Source: Gemmatimonadota bacterium
Lineage (GTDB): Bacteria; Gemmatimonadota; Gemmatimonadetes; Longimicrobiales; Gaopeijiaceae
Reading direction: 5' to 3'
Assembly: GCA_007121455.1 (NCBI GenBank)
Contig: SKKN01000035.1
Location: 1 to 64,000 of the forward strand
Length of the DNA: 64,000 nt
Position numbers and translations under genes: made by a program. Numbering within the stretch: position 1 is the first letter of the stretch; each line of letters starts with the position of its first letter. Under the pieces are notes generated by a model. The model searched no databases, was not told the origin of the DNA, and worked only from the letters and a program-made list of their open reading frames with translations. Below, one piece after another: positions 19,337 to 57,845 of the stretch.

Positions 19337-20602
19337 ATGCGTTTTCTTCACTTGGCAGACGTACATCTGGACACTCTCTTCGCCGGACGATCCCCGGCGC
19401 TTCGAGAGCGACTGCGTGGCGCACTCCAACAGGCGTGGACCCGCGCCGTCGATCAGGCCGTCGAGGAGGAGGTCGACGCGCTCCTGATCGCCGGGGACCT
19501 CTTCGACGGAGAGCGCCTCTCCTTCCACACCGAGCGGTTCCTGGGAGAGGAGCTCGCACGCCTGGGAGAGAAGGGGATTCCGGTTTTCTATGCCACCGGC
19601 AATCACGACCCTGGGGAAGGTACCGCCGAACGGGGACGAATCGAGTGGCCCGACCATGTGACGGTGTTCGACGACGCCACGCCTCGGACCGTCGACGTGC
19701 GAAGGAATGGCGAGGTCGTCGGCCGGATTACCGGCTCCGGTCACCGGACGGCAGTCGTGACGGAAGATCTCTCGCGCCGCTTTCCCCGCCCTGCCGAGGA
19801 CGGGGTGCCCGCCGTCGCCCTCCTCCATACGCAGGTGGGAGGAGCGCGGGGGGAGGATGCACATGACCCGTACGCTCCGTCCGAGCTGAAACACCTCGAG
19901 CGCGCCGGATACGACTACTGGGCAATCGGACACGTACATCAGCGTCAGAAGCTCTCCTCGGTGCCCGGCATCCATTATCCGGGAAACCTCCAGGGGCGCC
20001 ACCCTCGCGAAAACGGGGCGAAGGGGGGTCTCCTGGTTCACGTCCCGGGGCGCGGAGCCACCCCTGACGTGCGGTTCGTCGACCTCGCGCCGGTCCGCTG
20101 GGCACGAATCCAGGTCGAACCGGGGCCCGAGGTCGCGCGCTTCGATGGGTTGGTGCGTGCTGTCCGTGATGCATGGCGCCGGCTTCTCGAAGACGAACCG
20201 GCCCGACCCGGGACCGAATGGGTGCTCCGGGTCGAGCTGGCAGGGCCGTCCCCACTCCACCGGGAGCTCACCCGAGCCGACGAGGTCGAGACGCTCCGGT
20301 CGGAGCTCACCTCCGATCTGGGCGTCCTCGAGGTGGATCTCCGGTGCGGAGAGGTTCGCCCCGCCGTGGATCCGGCACCCTACCTCGAACGTCAGGATGC
20401 TGCAGGGGAGGCCCTGAGGCTCGTGCGGGCGATGAGCCAGGGTGAGGAGGACCCATTCGAAGTCCTGGGAATTGCCCCTCAGGATCTCGGCGGAGCGGAG
20501 ACCGAGGAGGCGTCGCAGGTGGCCCGCTACGTCCGACATCTCCTCGACGAAGGCGACCGCGAGCTTCTGGAGAGGTTCCTGCAAGAGAGAGAGGACGGGT
20601 GA
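19337..20602 (+). CDS. YhaO/SbcD-type DNA-repair exonuclease
   Basis: 421 residues. All calcineurin-type phosphoesterase motifs of Mre11/SbcD are intact: ADVHLD (Asp8, His10), GDLFDG, GNHD, HTQVGG and GHVH near residue 197. The enzyme should be a manganese-dependent nuclease acting on DNA ends. The C-terminal 150 residues form a capping/ATPase-docking region as in B. subtilis YhaO. Its stop overlaps the start of the YhaN-type ATPase by four bases (GTGA), so the two are translated together and probably form a complex. It contrasts with the degenerate fused version at 53622-55988. Confidence 0.9.
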   Translation: MRFLHLADVHLDTLFAGRSPALRERLRGALQQAWTRAVDQAVEEEVDALLIAGDLFDGERLSFHTERFLGEELARLGEKGIPVFYATGNHDPGEGTAERGRIEWPDHVTVFDDATPRTVDVRRNGEVVGRITGSGHRTAVVTEDLSRRFPRPAEDGVPAVALLHTQVGGARGEDAHDPYAPSELKHLERAGYDYWAIGHVHQRQKLSSVPGIHYPGNLQGRHPRENGAKGGLLVHVPGRGATPDVRFVDLAPVRWARIQVEPGPEVARFDGLVRAVRDAWRRLLEDEPARPGTEWVLRVELAGPSPLHRELTRADEVETLRSELTSDLGVLEVDLRCGEVRPAVDPAPYLERQDAAGEALRLVRAMSQGEEDPFEVLGIAPQDLGGAETEEASQVARYVRHLLDEGDRELLERFLQEREDG

Positions 20603-23439
20603 AGTTCACGCGGATTCGCGTCGATCGGCTCGGGCCGATCCGGGACCTCGACACCGGCCGGACGGAGCTGCCCGGCCTTGTGGTGGTTTGCGGTCCGAAC
20701 GAGGCGGGGAAGACCTCCCTCTTCACAGGTCTCCGAACCCTGCTCCACGGATTCTATCCGGCCGCGCGGGACCGACACCCCCTCGCCCCGTGGGATGGAG
20801 ATGAGGCCGAGCTCCGGGCGGAATACCTGGACCGGGAGGGCCGGGCCACCTCCGTGCACCGGCGGCTCCTCTCCGCACCGTGGGGACGCCTCGACCACGG
20901 GAACGGTAAACCCGTGAACCTCCGGAACGATGCTCTTCCGTGCGCTCGCGAGCTTCCCCGTGACGTATACGAGCAGATGTTCACGATCACCCTTCCACAA
21001 CTCGCGCGACTTCGCGACTCGACCGGGTGGAAGAGCGTTCGGGACCGGCTCGTGACCGGCATGGAGGCCTCGGACCTCGCTTCCCCGGGTCGCGTCGCCA
21101 ACGCACTTGAAGGGGAGGCACGGGCGCTGTGGCGCCCTTCGCGGAACCGAGGGTCGATGGAAGACAAGCTCGGCGATGACGAAAAGGCGCTGCGGGACCG
21201 GCTCGCGGCGGCTCGCGTGCGCGACCGGGATCTCCGCCAGGCCTCGAGACGGCGTGAAGAGGTGGCCGTGGAGATCGAGGAAGCCCAGGAGGTGCGCATT
21301 GGCCTCGAGGCCCGCCTGAAGCAGGTTCGCACCCTCCTCCCCGCAGGCGAACGGCTCGACCGATTCGATCGCCTCCTCCGGGATGCGGGAGACCCGGAAG
21401 CTCTCCTGGCGCTTCCTGCGGACCCGGTCGACCGCCTGGAAGAGCTCTCCCGCACCCAGGCACGGGAGGAGGAGCAGCGAATGGAGGCGGCCACCAAGGT
21501 GGAGGAGCTCCGTTCGAAGGTCCCGGAACTGGATTCCGGAAGCGAAGCGCTCCTCTCCCGTTCCGACGCGGTGGAGAAGCTTACGGTACATGCGCCCCTC
21601 GTCACGGAGCGTCGCTCCCGATCATCGGCGCTGCGCAGCGATCTCCAGCGGATCGATGACGATCTCGAGCCCCTGATTCTCGAAGTCTTCGGGGAGTCCG
21701 GGAAAGGCATCTCCTCCGACGACCTGAGAGGCGTCGCCATTTCGGACCTCCGGTCGAGAATCGAACAGGCGGGCGAGATCGACCGGCGACGTGCGCACGT
21801 GGAGGACCTTCTGGTCGCTGCGCGCGCCCGACATGCACCCCAGGCCGGAGAGTCCGGCGTCCCCGCGGGAATCATGGCCGCAAGTGGTCTCGCCGCGGCC
21901 ACTCTCCTCGCCGCCATCCTCCTCCTGGTGGCCGGGGGCGTGGACGAGCCGTCCTCCTTGGGGCTCGTGCTCCTGCTCGCCGGCAGCGTGCTCGGCGTGG
22001 GCACCTGGCTCCGTTGGGCCGGATGGCGGCAGCGAGTGGAAGCCGCGAGCCGGGAACACGAGGAACGGGCCCAGGAGCTCGATGACCTCGAGGGCCGCAT
22101 CGCGACCTTGAGCGAGGAGAGGGTGCTTCAGCAGGACGCGGCGCTTGCGGCAGTATCGCCCCTGCCCATTCGGAAGGAGCGGCTCGACCGCCTCCCCCAC
22201 GAGCTCCCCGGAGAACTGGAACGCCTTCGCGACCTCCTGCGAGAGCGGGATCGGGCCGAACGCGAGTTGAACGAGATTCAGCAGGAGGAAGCGCGCTTCG
22301 CCGGCGAGCTGCACAGCCTGCTCACGGACGTCCCCGCCTTCCAGCTTCCAGATGATCCGGCACAGGCACTCCCCCTGCTCGAAGAACGCCTGCGGGTCGC
22401 CCGGGCCCGGTCCGAAGCCCGGACGGATGCGGAGCTCGCGGTCCGGGAGGCCGAACGCGAGCTCGAACGGTGTGCGGAATCCGCCGACAGAGGGACGGAG
22501 GCGGTCCGATTGCTCGGCCATGCGCTCGAGCAGGTCGAGCCGGGCCAACCGCTCCCGGAGGCGGCCCGGCGGGCACGGGACAGGAGGGAGTCCCTCGAGA
22601 ATGCCCGCAGGATGGCGCGCGAGCTCGAAGCCGAGTTCGGCGACCTCCAGCAGCTACGAGACCGTGTATCCGAGGCCCGCGCCACGATCGACGACGAGGG
22701 GGGAGCGGAGGGACGAACGGATTCTCGGGAGGAAGTGGAGACGCGGATCATCCAGGAGCTCGAGGCTGCAAATCAGGAGCTCGACATCCTCCGAAATGAG
22801 AGGGCGACACTCACCGCTGCGCTCCGTCCGGGGAAAGACGACGCATCCGTCGCGACGATCGAGGCCTCGATCGAGCGCATCCAGGAGCAACGGGCCGAGC
22901 TACGAAGAGAGCGGGACCGCCTCTGGCTTCTGAGTCGGGTGGTGCGGGTGGCCGAACGTCGCTTCCGCGATGCACATCAGCCCGAGCTGATCCGTCGTGC
23001 ATCCCGCCACCTGGGCCGGATCACCGGAGGCCGGTACGAGCGCCTCATTCTCGGGAATGAAGAGGATGGTGACGCCCTCCTCCTGCAGGCCCCCCACCTT
23101 CCGGAGCCCCTGCCCGCGGAGGAGCCGCTCTCCACCGGCACGTGCGAGCAGGTGTACCTCGCCCTCCGGCTCGCCGTGGTGGAGTTGGTGGAAGGAGAGG
23201 GAGAGCCCCTCCCCCTCATTCTCGACGAGGTGCTCGTCCACTGGGATGCGGAGCGCCGAAGCCGCGGGCTGGACCTGCTCGAAGCGTTAGCAGAAGAGCG
23301 ACAGGTATTCCTCTTCACCTGCCACCCCGCGATCGCCGAGGAGGTGGAGACTCGAGGCGGCTTCCGGCTGGACCTCCAGATGCCGGGCGAGCGTCCGCCG
23401 GCGACCGAACCGGAGGCGGCGCTCGGACGAGACCCATGA
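20599..23439 (+). CDS. YhaN-type ABC ATPase, SbcC/Rad50-like, with membrane hairpin
   Basis: 946 residues from GTG. Walker A is GPNEAGKTS at about 33-41. Long heptad-rich coiled-coil arms flank two adjacent hydrophobic segments at about 423-472 (MAASGLAAATLLAAILLLV and LGLVLLLAGSVLGVG), where Rad50 has its zinc hook. The C-terminal lobe keeps a signature-region Ser-Thr-Gly-Thr and a Walker B ILDEVLVHWD near 873. The membrane hairpin in place of a hook is a known YhaN-family trait. It works with the preceding nuclease in double-strand-end processing. An ATGA overlap couples it to the following hydrolase. Confidence 0.88.
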   Translation: MKFTRIRVDRLGPIRDLDTGRTELPGLVVVCGPNEAGKTSLFTGLRTLLHGFYPAARDRHPLAPWDGDEAELRAEYLDREGRATSVHRRLLSAPWGRLDHGNGKPVNLRNDALPCARELPRDVYEQMFTITLPQLARLRDSTGWKSVRDRLVTGMEASDLASPGRVANALEGEARALWRPSRNRGSMEDKLGDDEKALRDRLAAARVRDRDLRQASRRREEVAVEIEEAQEVRIGLEARLKQVRTLLPAGERLDRFDRLLRDAGDPEALLALPADPVDRLEELSRTQAREEEQRMEAATKVEELRSKVPELDSGSEALLSRSDAVEKLTVHAPLVTERRSRSSALRSDLQRIDDDLEPLILEVFGESGKGISSDDLRGVAISDLRSRIEQAGEIDRRRAHVEDLLVAARARHAPQAGESGVPAGIMAASGLAAATLLAAILLLVAGGVDEPSSLGLVLLLAGSVLGVGTWLRWAGWRQRVEAASREHEERAQELDDLEGRIATLSEERVLQQDAALAAVSPLPIRKERLDRLPHELPGELERLRDLLRERDRAERELNEIQQEEARFAGELHSLLTDVPAFQLPDDPAQALPLLEERLRVARARSEARTDAELAVREAERELERCAESADRGTEAVRLLGHALEQVEPGQPLPEAARRARDRRESLENARRMARELEAEFGDLQQLRDRVSEARATIDDEGGAEGRTDSREEVETRIIQELEAANQELDILRNERATLTAALRPGKDDASVATIEASIERIQEQRAELRRERDRLWLLSRVVRVAERRFRDAHQPELIRRASRHLGRITGGRYERLILGNEEDGDALLLQAPHLPEPLPAEEPLSTGTCEQVYLALRLAVVELVEGEGEPLPLILDEVLVHWDAERRSRGLDLLEALAEERQVFLFTCHPAIAEEVETRGGFRLDLQMPGERPPATEPEAALGRDP

Positions 23440-51691: not shown

Positions 51692-53635
51692 ATGGTTGCC
51701 GTCGATACCGGTGGCACGTTCACCGATCTGATCCTGCGTCGAGGGTCGGAGATCCGCACCCTGAAGGTACCCTCCACCCCCGAGGATCCATCGGTCGCGG
51801 TGCTCGAAGGTCTTCGCGAGCTCCTCGACGAGGGGGAAGCATTCCGACTGGTTCATGGATCCACGGTCGCCACGAACGCTCTCCTGGAGCGGACGGGCGC
51901 CCGGGTCGTTCTGGTCACGAACGAGGGGTTCGAGGACCTGATCGAGATCGGGCGCCAGAACCGCGACGAGCTGTATGCACTGTCTCCCAGTCGTCCGACC
52001 CCCCTCGTCGCCCGGGAAGCCCGAATCGGGATTTCCGGACGCATCGTACCGGATGGTGAGGAGATCGAGCCCCTGGATGCCGAAGAGCTCTCCATGCTCG
52101 GCGCCCGTGTGGGCCGAGCAGAGTCCATCGCCGTCTCCCTCCTGCACGCTTACGCCCGCCCGGATCATGAGCGCGCGATCGAGGCGGCGCTCTCCGGCAG
52201 CCCCGCGCCCGTCTCGCTCTCGTCCCAGATCCTGCCGGAATACCGGGAGTACGAAAGGACCGCCACGACCGTGGTCAATGCTTACGTGCGGCCGATCATC
52301 TCGCGTTACCTGGAGCGGATCGAGGCATCCGCAGGGGCTGAGAGCATCCGCATCATGGGCTCCGACGGAGGCGCGCTCTCGCTCGGCCGCGCCGCCGCAG
52401 AACCCGTTCACACCGTTCTCTCCGGCCCTGCGGGGGGGGTCGTCGGAGCACGCGAATGGGGGCGGAGAATCGGAACGGACCAAATCATGGCCTTCGACAT
52501 GGGCGGCACGTCCACGGACGTCGCCCTCGCACCGGGCCGGCTCGTTCGCACTCGTGAATTCCAGATCGCGGGCCTCCCCGTGGCGATCCCGGTCCTCGAC
52601 ATTCACACCGTGGGAGCGGGTGGAGGCTCGATTGCCCAACTCGATCCGGGTGGAGCCCTGCGGGTGGGGCCCCGTAGCGCCGGTGCGGATCCCGGCCCGA
52701 TCGTCTACGGTCGAGGGGGCACGGAGCTCACCGTGACCGATGCACACGTCCTTCTCGGCCGTCTCCCCCCCGATGCCTTCCTCGGCGGGCGGCACCAACT
52801 TCGGACCACGGAGCTCTCCAACAGGTTCGGAGAGCTCGCGGGGAGGCTCGAGCAGGAGCCCGAGCACACGGCGGCCGGGATCCTGGCTGTGGCGAACACC
52901 GCAATGGAGCGCGCTCTTCGTGTCATCTCGGTGGAGAAAGGGCATGATCCGCGCGACTTCACGCTCGTTTCCTTCGGTGGGGCTGGTGCGCTTCATGCCG
53001 CAGAGCTCGCTCGCCGGCTCGGGGTGCGCCGGGTGCTGATTCCCCCGGACCCCGGCCTCCTCTCGGCGTTTGGGATGCTGGCCGCCCCGGTGACCCGCGA
53101 ACGGGCCCGGACGGTGCTGATCTCGTCCGAGGAGACGGAGGCGGTAGACGCCGTGCTCGATGAGCTCGCCGCGGAAGCTCATGGCGAGATGCTGGATGAA
53201 GGGCACGCGCCGGAAGGCCTGTCCGTGGAACGACAGGTGGACGCTCGGTACGGGGGACAGAGCTTCGAGCTCACGGTCCCGGCAGAGAAGTGGGCCAGCG
53301 CGTTCCACCGCCAACACCGGGAACGGTACGGGTATGACCGCCCCGCAGATCCCGTTGTCGCAGTGACGCTGCGTGTGCGGGTCATTGCTTCCGGCGATGC
53401 GCCGCCGCACTCCCGCCTCTTCGACGCCTCGGGACCTCCTCCAACCAAGCCGGTGCCGGTCTTCGCGGACGGGCAGTGGACCGAAGGCCGGAGTGTATGG
53501 AGGGAGACGCTTCGATCCGGCCACCGGCTCATGGGACCGGCCCTAGTTCTCGAATACAGCTCCACGGCCTGGATCCCCTCGGGCTGGAACGCCGAGGTAC
53601 ATCCCTCCGGATCGCTTCTCCTCACCCCTCTCTGA
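51692..53635 (+). CDS. HyuA-type hydantoinase/5-oxoprolinase subunit, without HyuB
   Basis: 647 residues. The actin-like ATPase fold shows VDTGGTFTDLILR, a LVHGSTVATNALLERTGA block, FDMGGTSTDVAL and SFGGAGALHAAELA. HyuA hydrolyses ATP to open hydantoin or 5-oxoproline rings, usually together with HyuB encoded next to it. Here the next gene is on the opposite strand and overlaps by 14 bases, so no HyuB follows. The enzyme may be specialised or paired with a distant subunit. ATG 51692 begins the fold directly; ATG 51629 is an alternative. Confidence 0.88.
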   Translation: MVAVDTGGTFTDLILRRGSEIRTLKVPSTPEDPSVAVLEGLRELLDEGEAFRLVHGSTVATNALLERTGARVVLVTNEGFEDLIEIGRQNRDELYALSPSRPTPLVAREARIGISGRIVPDGEEIEPLDAEELSMLGARVGRAESIAVSLLHAYARPDHERAIEAALSGSPAPVSLSSQILPEYREYERTATTVVNAYVRPIISRYLERIEASAGAESIRIMGSDGGALSLGRAAAEPVHTVLSGPAGGVVGAREWGRRIGTDQIMAFDMGGTSTDVALAPGRLVRTREFQIAGLPVAIPVLDIHTVGAGGGSIAQLDPGGALRVGPRSAGADPGPIVYGRGGTELTVTDAHVLLGRLPPDAFLGGRHQLRTTELSNRFGELAGRLEQEPEHTAAGILAVANTAMERALRVISVEKGHDPRDFTLVSFGGAGALHAAELARRLGVRRVLIPPDPGLLSAFGMLAAPVTRERARTVLISSEETEAVDAVLDELAAEAHGEMLDEGHAPEGLSVERQVDARYGGQSFELTVPAEKWASAFHRQHRERYGYDRPADPVVAVTLRVRVIASGDAPPHSRLFDASGPPPTKPVPVFADGQWTEGRSVWRETLRSGHRLMGPALVLEYSSTAWIPSGWNAEVHPSGSLLLTPL

Positions 53636-55988
53636 GGACGAGGCTCGCGGGTCCGGAGGCCAACCTTCGCACCGATGGCCTTCCTGGCCCGGGATCCGGG
53701 AGGACTTCGAGTACCGAGTCGAAGTATTCGGGGAAGCGTTCCGCCAGTTCCCCCTTCGTGACGACGAGTCGCTGAGGAATCCCTCCGAATCGGGTTCGGA
53801 GGAGATGCAGTGTCTGCATCTTCCCTTCCTCGGAGAGGCCCTCCAGAGCACCGGTGAGCACCACCACACCGGGCCCCACCCCCGCCTCGCCCGCCAACTC
53901 GAGGGTGGCCAGCCGGAGCGCGAGCACCGTCGGGCGGCAATCCTCCTCGTCACGAGGCAGCCACGCCCTACCATCGCGGACCAACTCCAGCCTCCCGTCC
54001 TCCAGTTGGATGCCACCAAGCGAGCCGCCCGTCAACGCCGACAGGATCGCCGAGCCGCGTCGCACGATCGCCACTTCGACCGCCGCCCCGCGCCCGGTCG
54101 CCGGAAGGTCCGCACCCGGGGAACCGCTCCGCACCCGCGCCCTCTCCAGTCGCTCCGTCAATACCCGAATCTTCGCCTGGAGCTCGAGCGATGAACGTTC
54201 CCGCTCCCTCAGATCGTCCGGCTTCAACTCGAGCTGCTCCCTCCGCCGCCGCCACCACGTTCCGTCCTGAACGACCTCCTCCCACTCCTCCTCGAGCCCC
54301 TTCAGCACTTCTTCGAAACGATCCTCCAGCACGACGCCGCACATGGGGCAGGGGAGGTCCGGCCCCTGCTCTCGGACCTGCTGGAGCCGCGCTTGCAGGA
54401 CTCGCGCGCGGTCCCGGTACGTAAGGAGATGGGTCTCGGCATCCTGTCGCTCTCGGAGCCACTCCATGATGCGAACGTCGAGCTCGCCTGCCTCCTCAGC
54501 GGCGTCCGCACGGGCGGCCTGGAGCTCCCGGGCGAGGCGCTCCGGATCATCATCGCTCTCCCCCCGCGAAGGACCCTGGACGTTCGGTCCTCCCTCCGCT
54601 CCGTCTTCCGGATCGTGCACCGGATCCCGGCCGTCCAGGGGGGCATCCTCGCTCCACGGCACGTGCTCGTCCCGGCCTGCGAGGAATGCCGTAAGCTCAC
54701 GCACCCCCTCCCGTACTGCGTGGATGGGGGAGATCCCGACGTCGATCCAGCAGCAGCGAGTCAGTCCGGGAACGGATCCGCGGTCCCCCCCCACATGAAT
54801 CTGGAAGGGGCTCTGACCGTAAACCGCCTGATCCGGTGGTTCGCCGATGAGCGCTTCGTGGAGCCCTCCGAGAAGCTCGCTTCGCACGGGAGCATCGCGG
54901 ACGATGAAAGATACGAGGCCGTCCCCGACCTCCGGGCTCGACCCGGCCCGGCGCGAAACGTCCCCTCGGGAGAGTCGACGGACCCGGAGAGAATCCCACC
55001 GGATACCCACGCCCGGCCCGCACAGCCCCAACGGAAAGAGGTGTGGACCATTCTCGAACGTGAGCCGCAAGTGGGCCACCTCACCACGGACATGGGCGAG
55101 GAGCGACGGTTCCAGCTCCCCGATTCGTTCCGGCGGAAGGCCGTCGATTGCAAGGTGCACAAGCTTCCCCCGGATTCCTCCGGGAACCGCCTCGACCACC
55201 TCTCGCAGCCGGGAACCGATTTTCTCCGGGGCCCCGGCGTCGACGGTCAGGGGCGGAAGACGGACCACGGGCCGGCCCGGCACCGGATGAAACCGGTGCG
55301 TGCCTGCCGACAGGTCACAGGTGATGAACCCCTTTTCCGCGCCGGCCTCCAGCCAGGGGGCGGGGCCGATCCGCTCGAGCGATCCGGCTTGATGCGCATT
55401 CGACCCGAAGCGCCGGTACTCATGCCCGCAGCCGGCGGCAATATAATCCCAATCCGATGTCTCCACCACCGGCCCTCGTCCCGTGCCGCATGCGACGGCG
55501 CCGCGGGCGACCAACACATTCCAACGTTGGGTCGGATCGGGTCGAATTGCGGGAAACGGCGACTGCATGATCGCCCGGTGCGGCAACAGGAGCGCGTGGG
55601 CTCCTTGCGCCTGAAGGTGGATCGAGCGGGGAGCGCCCGAGGCCGCCTCCACGCCGGGAAGCGCGTCGAATGCGGTCAGCACTCCCGGGTCCGCCGGGCG
55701 TAGGGGAGTATCACGGGCTCCTGCCACGAGCAGGATGGGAGCGTCGGGGAGGGCGCCGTGCAGGAATTCGAGGCCGCGGCTCAACTGGGTGAGCGCGCCG
55801 GCGGGCGGGTGGGGTGTATCGAAGATGTCCCCAGCCAGGACGATCAGATCGGGCCGGAGTCGCACCAGGGCTTCGATCGCGGCGTGAAAGACACGCGCAA
55901 CGTCCCGTTCCCGCAGGTTGAGGCCCCGTTCCTCCCGCGGAAAAATGCGATGACCCAGGTGAATGTCGGAGAGGTGGGCCAGAATCAC
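53622..55988 (-). CDS. Single-chain Mre11-Rad50-like fusion with eroded catalytic motifs
   Basis: 788 residues from GTG 55988. Residues 1-235 are an SbcD/Mre11-like phosphoesterase: SDIHLG (Asp8, His10) and GDIFD (53-57) are kept, but GNHD reads GARD (90-93), the motif IV His is Arg162, and GHxH reads GCGH (186-189). Residues 330-430 align with a Rad50/YhaN N-lobe, where Walker A GPNEAGKST is replaced by VRDAPVRSE (363-371) while the following helix LLGGLHEALIGE is kept. Residues 480-620 form a short coiled coil with a CPMC zinc hook (547-550). Residues 640-760 resemble the C-lobe: LALRLA is kept, but the signature reads PRDEED and Walker B reads VVVLTGALEGLS. Predicted to be structural or DNA-tethering, not catalytic. 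Third gene of an operon, four bases after its neighbour's stop. Confidence 0.75.
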   Translation of the reverse strand: MILAHLSDIHLGHRIFPREERGLNLRERDVARVFHAAIEALVRLRPDLIVLAGDIFDTPHPPAGALTQLSRGLEFLHGALPDAPILLVAGARDTPLRPADPGVLTAFDALPGVEAASGAPRSIHLQAQGAHALLLPHRAIMQSPFPAIRPDPTQRWNVLVARGAVACGTGRGPVVETSDWDYIAAGCGHEYRRFGSNAHQAGSLERIGPAPWLEAGAEKGFITCDLSAGTHRFHPVPGRPVVRLPPLTVDAGAPEKIGSRLREVVEAVPGGIRGKLVHLAIDGLPPERIGELEPSLLAHVRGEVAHLRLTFENGPHLFPLGLCGPGVGIRWDSLRVRRLSRGDVSRRAGSSPEVGDGLVSFIVRDAPVRSELLGGLHEALIGEPPDQAVYGQSPFQIHVGGDRGSVPGLTRCCWIDVGISPIHAVREGVRELTAFLAGRDEHVPWSEDAPLDGRDPVHDPEDGAEGGPNVQGPSRGESDDDPERLARELQAARADAAEEAGELDVRIMEWLRERQDAETHLLTYRDRARVLQARLQQVREQGPDLPCPMCGVVLEDRFEEVLKGLEEEWEEVVQDGTWWRRRREQLELKPDDLRERERSSLELQAKIRVLTERLERARVRSGSPGADLPATGRGAAVEVAIVRRGSAILSALTGGSLGGIQLEDGRLELVRDGRAWLPRDEEDCRPTVLALRLATLELAGEAGVGPGVVVLTGALEGLSEEGKMQTLHLLRTRFGGIPQRLVVTKGELAERFPEYFDSVLEVLPDPGPGRPSVRRLASGPASLVLREG

Positions 55989-55992
55989 GTAC

Positions 55993-57372
55993 TCAGACGC
56001 CTCCGGGCGTCGCTTCCAGGGTGCCCTCGGAGGCCCGGTCGGAACGCCACAGGAGCTCGAACCCGTCGAGCCGGACGGGTGGATCCGGATCGATCGGGCC
56101 GAGCACCAGCAGGGCATCCTCCCCGGCACTGTAGAGGTACTGTGGGGCAAAGCGCGCCGCCGACTCGTCGAGAAGCGCCTTCAGGGGCGGGTCATCCGGG
56201 ACTTCGGGTGAGAGGAGGCCTTCTCGGGCCTGGCGGCCCCTGATCGGGAACCCGTACGCAACCACCACTCCATCCGCACCGAGCAAGGTGTCGAACCACG
56301 GCAGCAAATCGCGAAGCGCAACGGGAATGGGATTACCTCCTGCGAGAAACGATCCCGATACCACGATGGCGTCCACCTCTCCGAGGAGCTCCACCAGCCG
56401 CCAATCCGGCGGTCCATGATGGATCTCGATCCGATCGGATTCGGAGACGGCGAAGTGCGAATATGCCAGGTCGGTGAGGGTCTGGTTCTCTTCCAGGACG
56501 ACGATCCGGGCGTCCGGGTGGTACCTTCGAAGCAGGCACGGCACCGTCATGGCGCCGCCGCCCACGAAAAGCACCGTTCGTGGATCGCGAAGCCCCGGAA
56601 GGAGGTGCTGGAGGGCAACCTCCGCGGGTATGCGCGGATCTCCCTGCTCGGTCTCGAGCCCCCGGAGCCGATCATTCTCCTGAAGGGCCCTGAGCACACT
56701 CCGCGGCCTGCCGCGCACCCAGTGGTCGACCCTGAGCTCTCCGCGATCCGAGGCTCTGCGCTCGACATTCCGCACCAAGATCACCTGATCGAGGATCCAT
56801 CCATGCACGAGGGCCCCGGCCGAGAGGAGAACCACGCAGACGAGGAGGAGGTGGGGCGCGGAAAACCGGGGGAAGAGCACGAAGCCGGCGAGCATGAATC
56901 CGGCCGCCGTGCCGAGGATCGCAGCCACCCCGGGGGAGAGCCGGGACACTCCAGGAGGAGGGTGAAGGACGGAGCCGGCACGGGTCATGGCGCCGAGCAG
57001 CGAGCCGCCGAAGAAGAGTGGAAGGCCGGCCAGGAGCGCCAAGCCCATTGCCTGAGACCAGGGCCGCACCCCGAATGCTCCGAAGTATTCCCAGGCTCCG
57101 GAGAAGACGACCGCGGCGGTGAAGGAGACGAGCGTGAGGAGCCAGCGCCGACGCACCCCCTCGACGGATGCATCCGGATGGATTCCGCGTCCGGTCCACA
57201 TCCCGAAGGCGAGGGCACCCGCCAGTGTTGCGAGAATGACGGAGAGCGCTTCGATGAACCCGACTCCGCCGTAGAGGAGCAGCCCCACCGCCACCTTGCT
57301 CGCCACAGCCAGACACGCGCCCAGGATGAACGGCGGGACGAGGAAGATGCGGCGCCAACGCTCGGTCACCAT
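55993..57372 (-). CDS. Membrane-anchored spermidine-synthase-like protein
   Basis: 459 residues from ATG 57372, overlapping the flavin-reductase stop (ATGGTGA). About six hydrophobic helices fill residues 10-200 (for example VGFIEALSVILATLAGALAF, VFSGAWEYFGAF and GTAAGFMLAGFVLFP). The C-terminal 250 residues match the nucleotide-binding fold of spermidine synthases and SAM methyltransferases: VLFVGGGAMTVPCLLRRY, acidic VVLEEN, and VDAIVVSGSF. Catalytic Asp residues of true spermidine synthases are not evident, so the activity is open. It is encoded between a flavin reductase and the Mre11-Rad50-like fusion. Confidence 0.7.
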   Translation of the reverse strand: MVTERWRRIFLVPPFILGACLAVASKVAVGLLLYGGVGFIEALSVILATLAGALAFGMWTGRGIHPDASVEGVRRRWLLTLVSFTAAVVFSGAWEYFGAFGVRPWSQAMGLALLAGLPLFFGGSLLGAMTRAGSVLHPPPGVSRLSPGVAAILGTAAGFMLAGFVLFPRFSAPHLLLVCVVLLSAGALVHGWILDQVILVRNVERRASDRGELRVDHWVRGRPRSVLRALQENDRLRGLETEQGDPRIPAEVALQHLLPGLRDPRTVLFVGGGAMTVPCLLRRYHPDARIVVLEENQTLTDLAYSHFAVSESDRIEIHHGPPDWRLVELLGEVDAIVVSGSFLAGGNPIPVALRDLLPWFDTLLGADGVVVAYGFPIRGRQAREGLLSPEVPDDPPLKALLDESAARFAPQYLYSAGEDALLVLGPIDPDPPVRLDGFELLWRSDRASEGTLEATPGGV

Positions 57373-57845
57373 ACCGGACGCTGGAACGAGCCCTTGAAGA
57401 ACACGAGCGGCGCCCCTTCCCGAGCCCCACAGTCCTGAACCTCTCCGATTACGATCGTATGGTCTCCTGCAGTCATGCACTTCCATACCCGGCAATCCAA
57501 CCACGCCAGGGCGCCCTCCAGGATGGGACTCCCCGTGGTCCCCGTTTCATACCGGAGCCCGGGGAATCGCTCCTCCTGGCTTTTCCCAGCGAAGCGCCGT
57601 GCCATGCCCTCATGTTCCGTGCCAAGGACGCTCACAGCGAACGCCCCGGCATCCATGATGAGGTCGTGCGAAGACGATTCCTGATCGACACAGACGAGTA
57701 CCATGGGCGGCACCAGCGAGACCGATGCGACGGAATTTGCGGTCATCCCGCAAGGGTTTCCTGCCGGATCGACGGCCGCGACGACGGTCACCCCGGTAGC
57801 GAATCGGGCCATGGCGTCCCGGAAGCTCCTTTCGTTCAACGTCAC
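57366..57845 (-). CDS. Flavin reductase domain protein (FMN split barrel)
   Basis: 159 residues from GTG 57845 with AGGAGG four to five bases upstream. Features of the flavin-reductase-like split barrel are FATGVTVVAAVDPAGNPCGMTA, NSVASVSLVPPMVLVCVD and GDHTIVIGEVQDC. These enzymes reduce FMN with NAD(P)H and often feed a monooxygenase; none is adjacent. First gene of the operon that continues into the membrane protein and the Mre11-Rad50-like fusion. Divergent from a lipoprotein gene. Confidence 0.9.
   Translation of the reverse strand: MTLNERSFRDAMARFATGVTVVAAVDPAGNPCGMTANSVASVSLVPPMVLVCVDQESSSHDLIMDAGAFAVSVLGTEHEGMARRFAGKSQEERFPGLRYETGTTGSPILEGALAWLDCRVWKCMTAGDHTIVIGEVQDCGAREGAPLVFFKGSFQRPVW

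Follow-up and report, generated by a model that had tools for sequence, protein, structure and literature searches.

The locus

The window (the whole 64,000-nucleotide stretch of Gemmatimonadota DNA analysed here) contains a minus-strand gene, running from a GTG at 55988 to a stop at 53622, that encodes a fused pseudo-Mre11-Rad50 chain of 788 residues, hereafter pseudo-MR (Table 1). These are the coordinates given by the first-pass annotation, which had been made from the sequence alone, and all motif strings that it quoted are present in the chain (DIHLG, GDIFD, GARD, VARG, GCGH, VRDAPVRSE, CPMC, PRDEED and VVLTGALEGLS). The GTG is preceded by a Shine-Dalgarno-like GGAGG and lies 4 bp beyond the stop of the preceding gene, and GC content per codon position (0.78/0.50/0.76) is like that of the neighbouring genes. 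A sequencing error or a wrong frame was ruled out as the origin of the 788-aa frame, which is open in many species and has a normal codon composition. The upstream gene is probably co-transcribed with pseudo-MR, and a relative of it sits before pseudo-MR in about 26 loci. In a Pfam search of the chain, the phosphoesterase was the sole match, slightly under the cut-off. A separate Mre11-like and Rad50-like pair, YhaO-YhaN, lies 31 kb from pseudo-MR. Intact SbcC or SbcD genes of the pseudo-MR lineage were not found in the host genome, where the YhaO gene at 19337 is the only other Mre11-like gene and SMC gives the best AAA_23 match.

Table 1. Features of pseudo-MR and of associated genes in the window.
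Feature	Position	Strand	Evidence or remark
YhaO-like phosphoesterase, intact GNHD	19337..20602	+	PF00149, 5.8e-16
YhaN-like ATPase, intact Walker A GPNEAGKTS	20599..23439	+	PF13514, 3.7e-14
pseudo-MR, whole gene	53622..55988	-	788 aa, GTG start
Rad50 C-lobe remnant, residues 630-788	53625..54101	-	Profile and structure matches
Walker B/D-loop position, VLTGALEG for ILDEVFGS	53838..53861	-	Asp-Glu lost
ABC signature position, PRDEED for SGGEED	53940..53957	-	Signature replaced
Short antiparallel coiled coil, residues 482-620	54129..54545	-	AF2 pLDDT mostly above 90
VQDGTWW motif, return helix	54252..54272	-	84/85; common to intact SbcC of sister families
Zinc hook CPMC, C547-C550	54339..54350	-	CxxC in 85/85
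Reduced Rad50 N-lobe remnant, residues 334-437	54678..54989	-	AF2; weak profile match
Walker A position, VRDAPVRSE for GPNGxGKS/T	54876..54902	-	Family alignment
Mre11/SbcD-like phosphoesterase and capping region, residues 1-313	55050..55988	-	TIGR00619, AF2, Foldseek
Motif V, GHxH to GCGH	55422..55433	-	First His lost; second His (metal-1) in 79/82
Motif IV, metal-2 His to Arg162	55503..55505	-	His remains in 48/82 relatives
Motif III, GNHD to GARD, catalytic His to Arg	55710..55721	-	Arg in 80/82 pseudo-MRs
Motif II, D54, metal-1/2 ligand, retained	55827..55829	-	80/82
Motif I, D8-x-H10, metal-1 ligands, retained	55959..55967	-	D in 81/82, H in 80/82
Upstream gene	55993..57504	-	4 bp from pseudo-MR; without Pfam match

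Retained and eroded sites in the two halves

The N-terminal half matches the sbcd profile TIGR00619 (6.7e-12, profile search) and archaeal Mre11 chains (1e-6). In the AF2 model of the whole chain (pLDDT 82.5, pTM 0.73; residues 315-349 and 440-477 disordered), residues 1-313 have pLDDT values mostly of 85-98, and the top Foldseek match of this model is Mre11 (4tug, 9.5e-14). Metal-1 and metal-2 ligand positions were taken from the Pyrococcus Mre11 assignments. Read in this way from the alignment, the nuclease site is unevenly eroded, with an intact metal-1 site and a broken metal-2 set and catalytic His. The metal-1 set D8, H10, D54 and H189 is complete in 79 of the 82 non-redundant pseudo-MRs, the last His of the window GCGH aligning with the second His of GHxH, whereas the three further metal-2 ligands are jointly retained in none of the 82. 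The position of the catalytic His in motif III is occupied by His in 25 of 26 intact relatives, and the Asp that follows the Arg of motif III is kept in 81/82 pseudo-MRs. In the window protein, 64 of the 70 Mre11-half columns that are conserved at 90% or more elsewhere are retained. The erosion of phosphoesterase motifs that the first-pass annotation had described thus applies to the metal-2 set and the catalytic His and not to the metal-1 ligands.

Such a pattern could reflect a changed enzyme, in which the metal-1 site together with the new Arg-Asp would provide a single-metal phosphoesterase or nucleotide-binding activity. The joint persistence of the four metal-1 ligands, the near-fixed change of His to Arg with the conserved Asp next to it, and the fact that the losses hit metal-2 and the proton donor are in line with this idea. 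It is nevertheless unlikely: members differ in what stands in place of motifs IV and V, a variability not usually seen in a new active site under constraint, the ATPase that would drive the chemistry is gone, and calcineurin-like phosphoesterases normally require both metals.

Because Foldseek with the whole chain returned Mre11 only, a separate model of the Rad50 half was built (pLDDT 84.1) and used as a query; it matches Rad50 and SMC heads (3auy, 6.3e-8). The C-lobe is the better preserved of the two lobes: its profile matches that of intact sister SbcC proteins (hhalign probability 97.7%, E 2.5e-12), the C-half profile matches Rad50 in the PDB (5e-10), and the C-lobe model superposes on 1f2u with a TM-score of 0.73 by target. 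In contrast, the Rad50 N-lobe appears to be mostly gone. The hhalign match of this region is weak (probability 17%, P 0.0015), only the strand-loop-helix of Walker A aligns, and pLDDT is modest, so that the N-lobe and Walker A assignment rests mainly on its place in the family alignment. A P-loop occurs in none of 85 family members, and the ABC signature is absent from all 82 non-redundant pseudo-MR homologues. Profile searches have thus recovered SbcD and the C-lobe with only a weak N-lobe match, and structure prediction gives a confident fold overall, in which the N-lobe is reduced. The proposal that scaffold helices are kept around each motif consequently stands for the Mre11 half, the hook and the C-lobe, but not for the N-lobe, which seems to be largely lost.

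Between the lobes, all 33 hook columns that are conserved at 90% or more elsewhere are retained in the window protein. Next to the hook, intact and degenerate forms alike conserve a VQDGxW(W)xxRxEQLxxKP segment (window, L068, L070). The coil measures about 62 residues per side in the AF2 model. In intact relatives the hook Cys lies at residue 406 of about 814, which would put arm length at roughly 240 residues, assuming an N-lobe that ends close to residue 165; the pseudo-MR arms are about four-fold shorter. The zinc hook of Rad50 is a stable, constitutive dimerisation module (PMC6969161), and the pseudo-MR hook resembles it in carrying a CxxC where the two strands of an antiparallel coil meet at the apex, although the heads in that system are active ATPases. 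The first-pass annotation had suggested a non-catalytic DNA tether. A long-range tether, as proposed for Rad50 hooks, would agree with the hook and apical coil being the best conserved part of the protein; arms of about 60 instead of about 240 residues per side, and the loss of ATP-dependent head engagement, make it highly improbable.

Descent, distribution and selection

Homologues were found in 43 of 58 related genomes searched, and scanning about 85,000 species returned 202 relatives, the best 80 of which are nearly all from Gemmatimonadota MAGs. A MAG labelled as Gammaproteobacteria (Ww582, L132) has pseudo-MR in Gemmatimonadota-type synteny and is probably mislabelled or contaminated. In the host family (f1), a large group of bacteria living in soil and water, homologues consist of single frames or of two overlapping frames, and the 82 non-redundant homologues of this type all replace GNHD, usually by GxRD. 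In two other families of the same order (f2 and f3), SbcD (about 400 aa) and SbcC (about 815 aa) are separate proteins and show the textbook motifs (GNHD, GHYH, GPNGAGKST, SGGEED and LILDEVFGSLD). Sampled members of f6, f7 and f9, which belong to the class, likewise have an intact SbcD-SbcC pair. Homologues with intact motifs in the same positions thus occur in sister families only, where they represent the ancestral state. In the loci checked, degenerate and intact forms share gene neighbourhoods, which identifies pseudo-MR as an orthologue of the resident SbcCD that still occupies its locus. This shared synteny, together with the lack of intact SbcC/SbcD in the genome, rules out that pseudo-MR is a paralogue or a horizontal acquisition accompanying an intact SbcCD, and the family-wide motif losses rule out decay specific to the window. 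As the alignment shows, these losses are fixed in 82 homologues, and the description of the window protein as a single-chain Mre11-Rad50 relative that has lost both catalytic centres is supported. Pseudo-MR is SbcCD by descent and, as judged from its motifs and metal site, fails the enzyme definitions of both SbcC and SbcD.

A quick tree of the Mre11 half, built with the motif columns removed and without the f6, f7 and f9 sequences, and containing some long branches, separates 15 intact relatives of the order from the 82 pseudo-MRs by one branch with a support of 100. Since the motif-less sequences form one clade, a single loss of catalysis is implied. Catalysis looks to have been lost once and fusion or fission to have been recurrent, the fused and split states requiring seven changes on the tree, of which at least three are forced by well-supported branches.

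In a sample of 246 genomes of the class, pseudo-MR is present in 64 of the 77 f1 genomes. It is missing from some f1 genera (g9, g12, g15 and g33), and is therefore dispensable; the loss appears complete in genus g12 (G011, G106, G115, G126, G179 and G207) and genus g15 (G014 and G147). Where the gene is present, it is maintained by purifying selection. In a pairwise codon model applied to 14 close pairs (13 of pseudo-MR and one intact control, some with high, saturated dS), omega lies between 0.003 and 0.44 for all regions of all pairs, and omega = 1 is rejected with LRT values above 10 except in four comparisons that are short or weakly diverged. This upholds the earlier proposal of selection for structure over random decay.

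A slowly decaying pseudogene, left to drift after SbcCD had become redundant, would account for the graded loss across the family, the absence of the gene from several genera, the long window branch and an in-frame stop in the closest kin of the window protein. At the family level this explanation is largely refuted by the purifying selection that close pairs show in all domains, the frames that are open in most species, the confident fold, and the hook and metal-1 residues that are invariant over many genera, and it is very unlikely. The window lineage itself evolves fast (branch 0.59). Its closest kin (G001, L039 120-2492, minus strand) has an in-frame TAG between the halves and has lost the DxH of motif I, lesions that are compatible either with an incipient pseudogene or local decay or with an assembly error. 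From the fast branch and these G001 lesions, relaxed selection in the window sub-lineage is possible.

Possible roles and relation to YhaO-YhaN

The distribution of YhaN suggests that YhaO-YhaN is a clade-specific acquisition. YhaN relatives (E 1e-20) occur in 51 of the 246 class genomes, all of them from f1 (51/77 versus 0/169 elsewhere). Within f1, YhaN is found in 48 of 64 genomes with pseudo-MR and in 3 of 13 without it (odds ratio 10, Fisher p 0.0007), a p value that ignores kinship and overstates the evidence because genera share history. In the host genome, YhaO-YhaN may supply catalysis. Like pseudo-MR, this pair is composed of Mre11-like and Rad50-like parts, but it has intact motifs and is encoded by two genes at a separate locus. 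The first-pass annotation had put forward pseudo-MR as a regulator of this pair. A regulator or accessory subunit specific to YhaO-YhaN, making mixed contacts with it via the hook or the Mre11 part, would fit the restriction of these YhaN relatives to f1 and the co-occurrence, and is possible; it cannot be the sole role, since 16 of the 64 pseudo-MR genomes, many of them over 90% complete, have no YhaN match. Furthermore, the genes are not adjacent to pseudo-MR, a YhaN-like domain match also occurs in one f2 genome (G040), and the association tracks genera and could be produced by phylogeny alone. As the explanation of pseudo-MR, it is unlikely.

The explanation preferred here, with a probability of roughly 0.6, is that the SbcD-SbcC orthologue was converted once, in the f1 ancestor, into a repurposed, non-catalytic, zinc-hook-dimerised scaffold that was repeatedly fused. 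It is favoured because conservation is highest in the hook with its apical coil, in the Mre11 fold and in the metal-1 pocket. On this view, a single conversion in the common ancestor of the family would have made the class-wide SbcD-SbcC pair a double pseudoenzyme, and its two genes would have fused into a single chain several times. Two chains would then join through the zinc hook, and perhaps also through their Mre11 halves, to form a compact scaffold that does not depend on ATP. Its single-metal pocket and Mre11 surface could hold DNA ends, branched DNA or some other phosphate ligand without cleaving it. Such a scaffold would position or restrain active repair factors, including YhaO-YhaN where present, and these would do the cutting. 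More tentatively, break repair in f1 might combine this non-enzymatic hook scaffold, arrived at under selection and equipped with a single-metal pocket that senses DNA or nucleotides, with a YhaO-YhaN pair that took over cutting.

Several known systems resemble pseudo-MR in part. The canonical SbcC-SbcD of sister Gemmatimonadota families shares with it the locus, the D-then-C order, the VQDGxW hook region and a homologous C-lobe and Mre11 half, but consists of two intact genes with GNHD, GHxH, GPNGxGKS/T, SGGEED, a DE Walker B and long arms, whereas pseudo-MR is fused, short-armed and devoid of these motifs. Mre11/Rad50 fusions are known from mimivirus R555 and its relatives, R555 being reported to have both Walker motifs, A and B, and almost the full set of nuclease residues (PMC3175470); it is likewise a single chain in Mre11-Rad50 order, while pseudo-MR has lost the ATPase motifs and several of the nuclease residues. 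Inactivated Mre11-like folds became scaffolds in polymerase B-subunits (PMC4996933). Those of the eukaryotic DNA polymerases alpha and delta, like pseudo-MR, combine a Mre11-like phosphodiesterase fold and dead motifs with a scaffold function, but they are polymerase subunits without a Rad50 half or zinc hook. In the open-access literature searched, there was no report of a motif-less, short-armed Mre11-Rad50 fixed across a bacterial family, nor any account of a Gemmatimonadota SbcCD. The shares of structure and of catalysis in what Mre11-Rad50 does are a long-standing question that is usually studied by point mutants. Here evolution has run the experiment in dozens of species: the ATPase and nuclease motifs have gone, arms and N-lobe have shrunk, and the hook, the fold and one metal site have stayed. 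The structural role can thereby be tested directly in a small, natural single-chain protein. If YhaO-YhaN did take over cutting from such a scaffold, the structural role of Mre11-Rad50 has parted from catalysis at the scale of a clade.

Additional SbcCD-like genes occur in a few genomes of the order. Two f1 genomes (G021, L177, and G025, L178) have an extra SbcC/SbcD-like pair beside pseudo-MR, with DWHLG, GHIH, a P-loop and SGGEQ; these pairs were probably acquired separately. In one f3 genome (G053; L074 3502-7084, minus strand, and L176), the resident SbcD has GDRD and GHHP next to an intact SbcC, and the genome encodes a second SbcCD-like pair. This may be an independent instance of the same His-to-Arg change after duplication.
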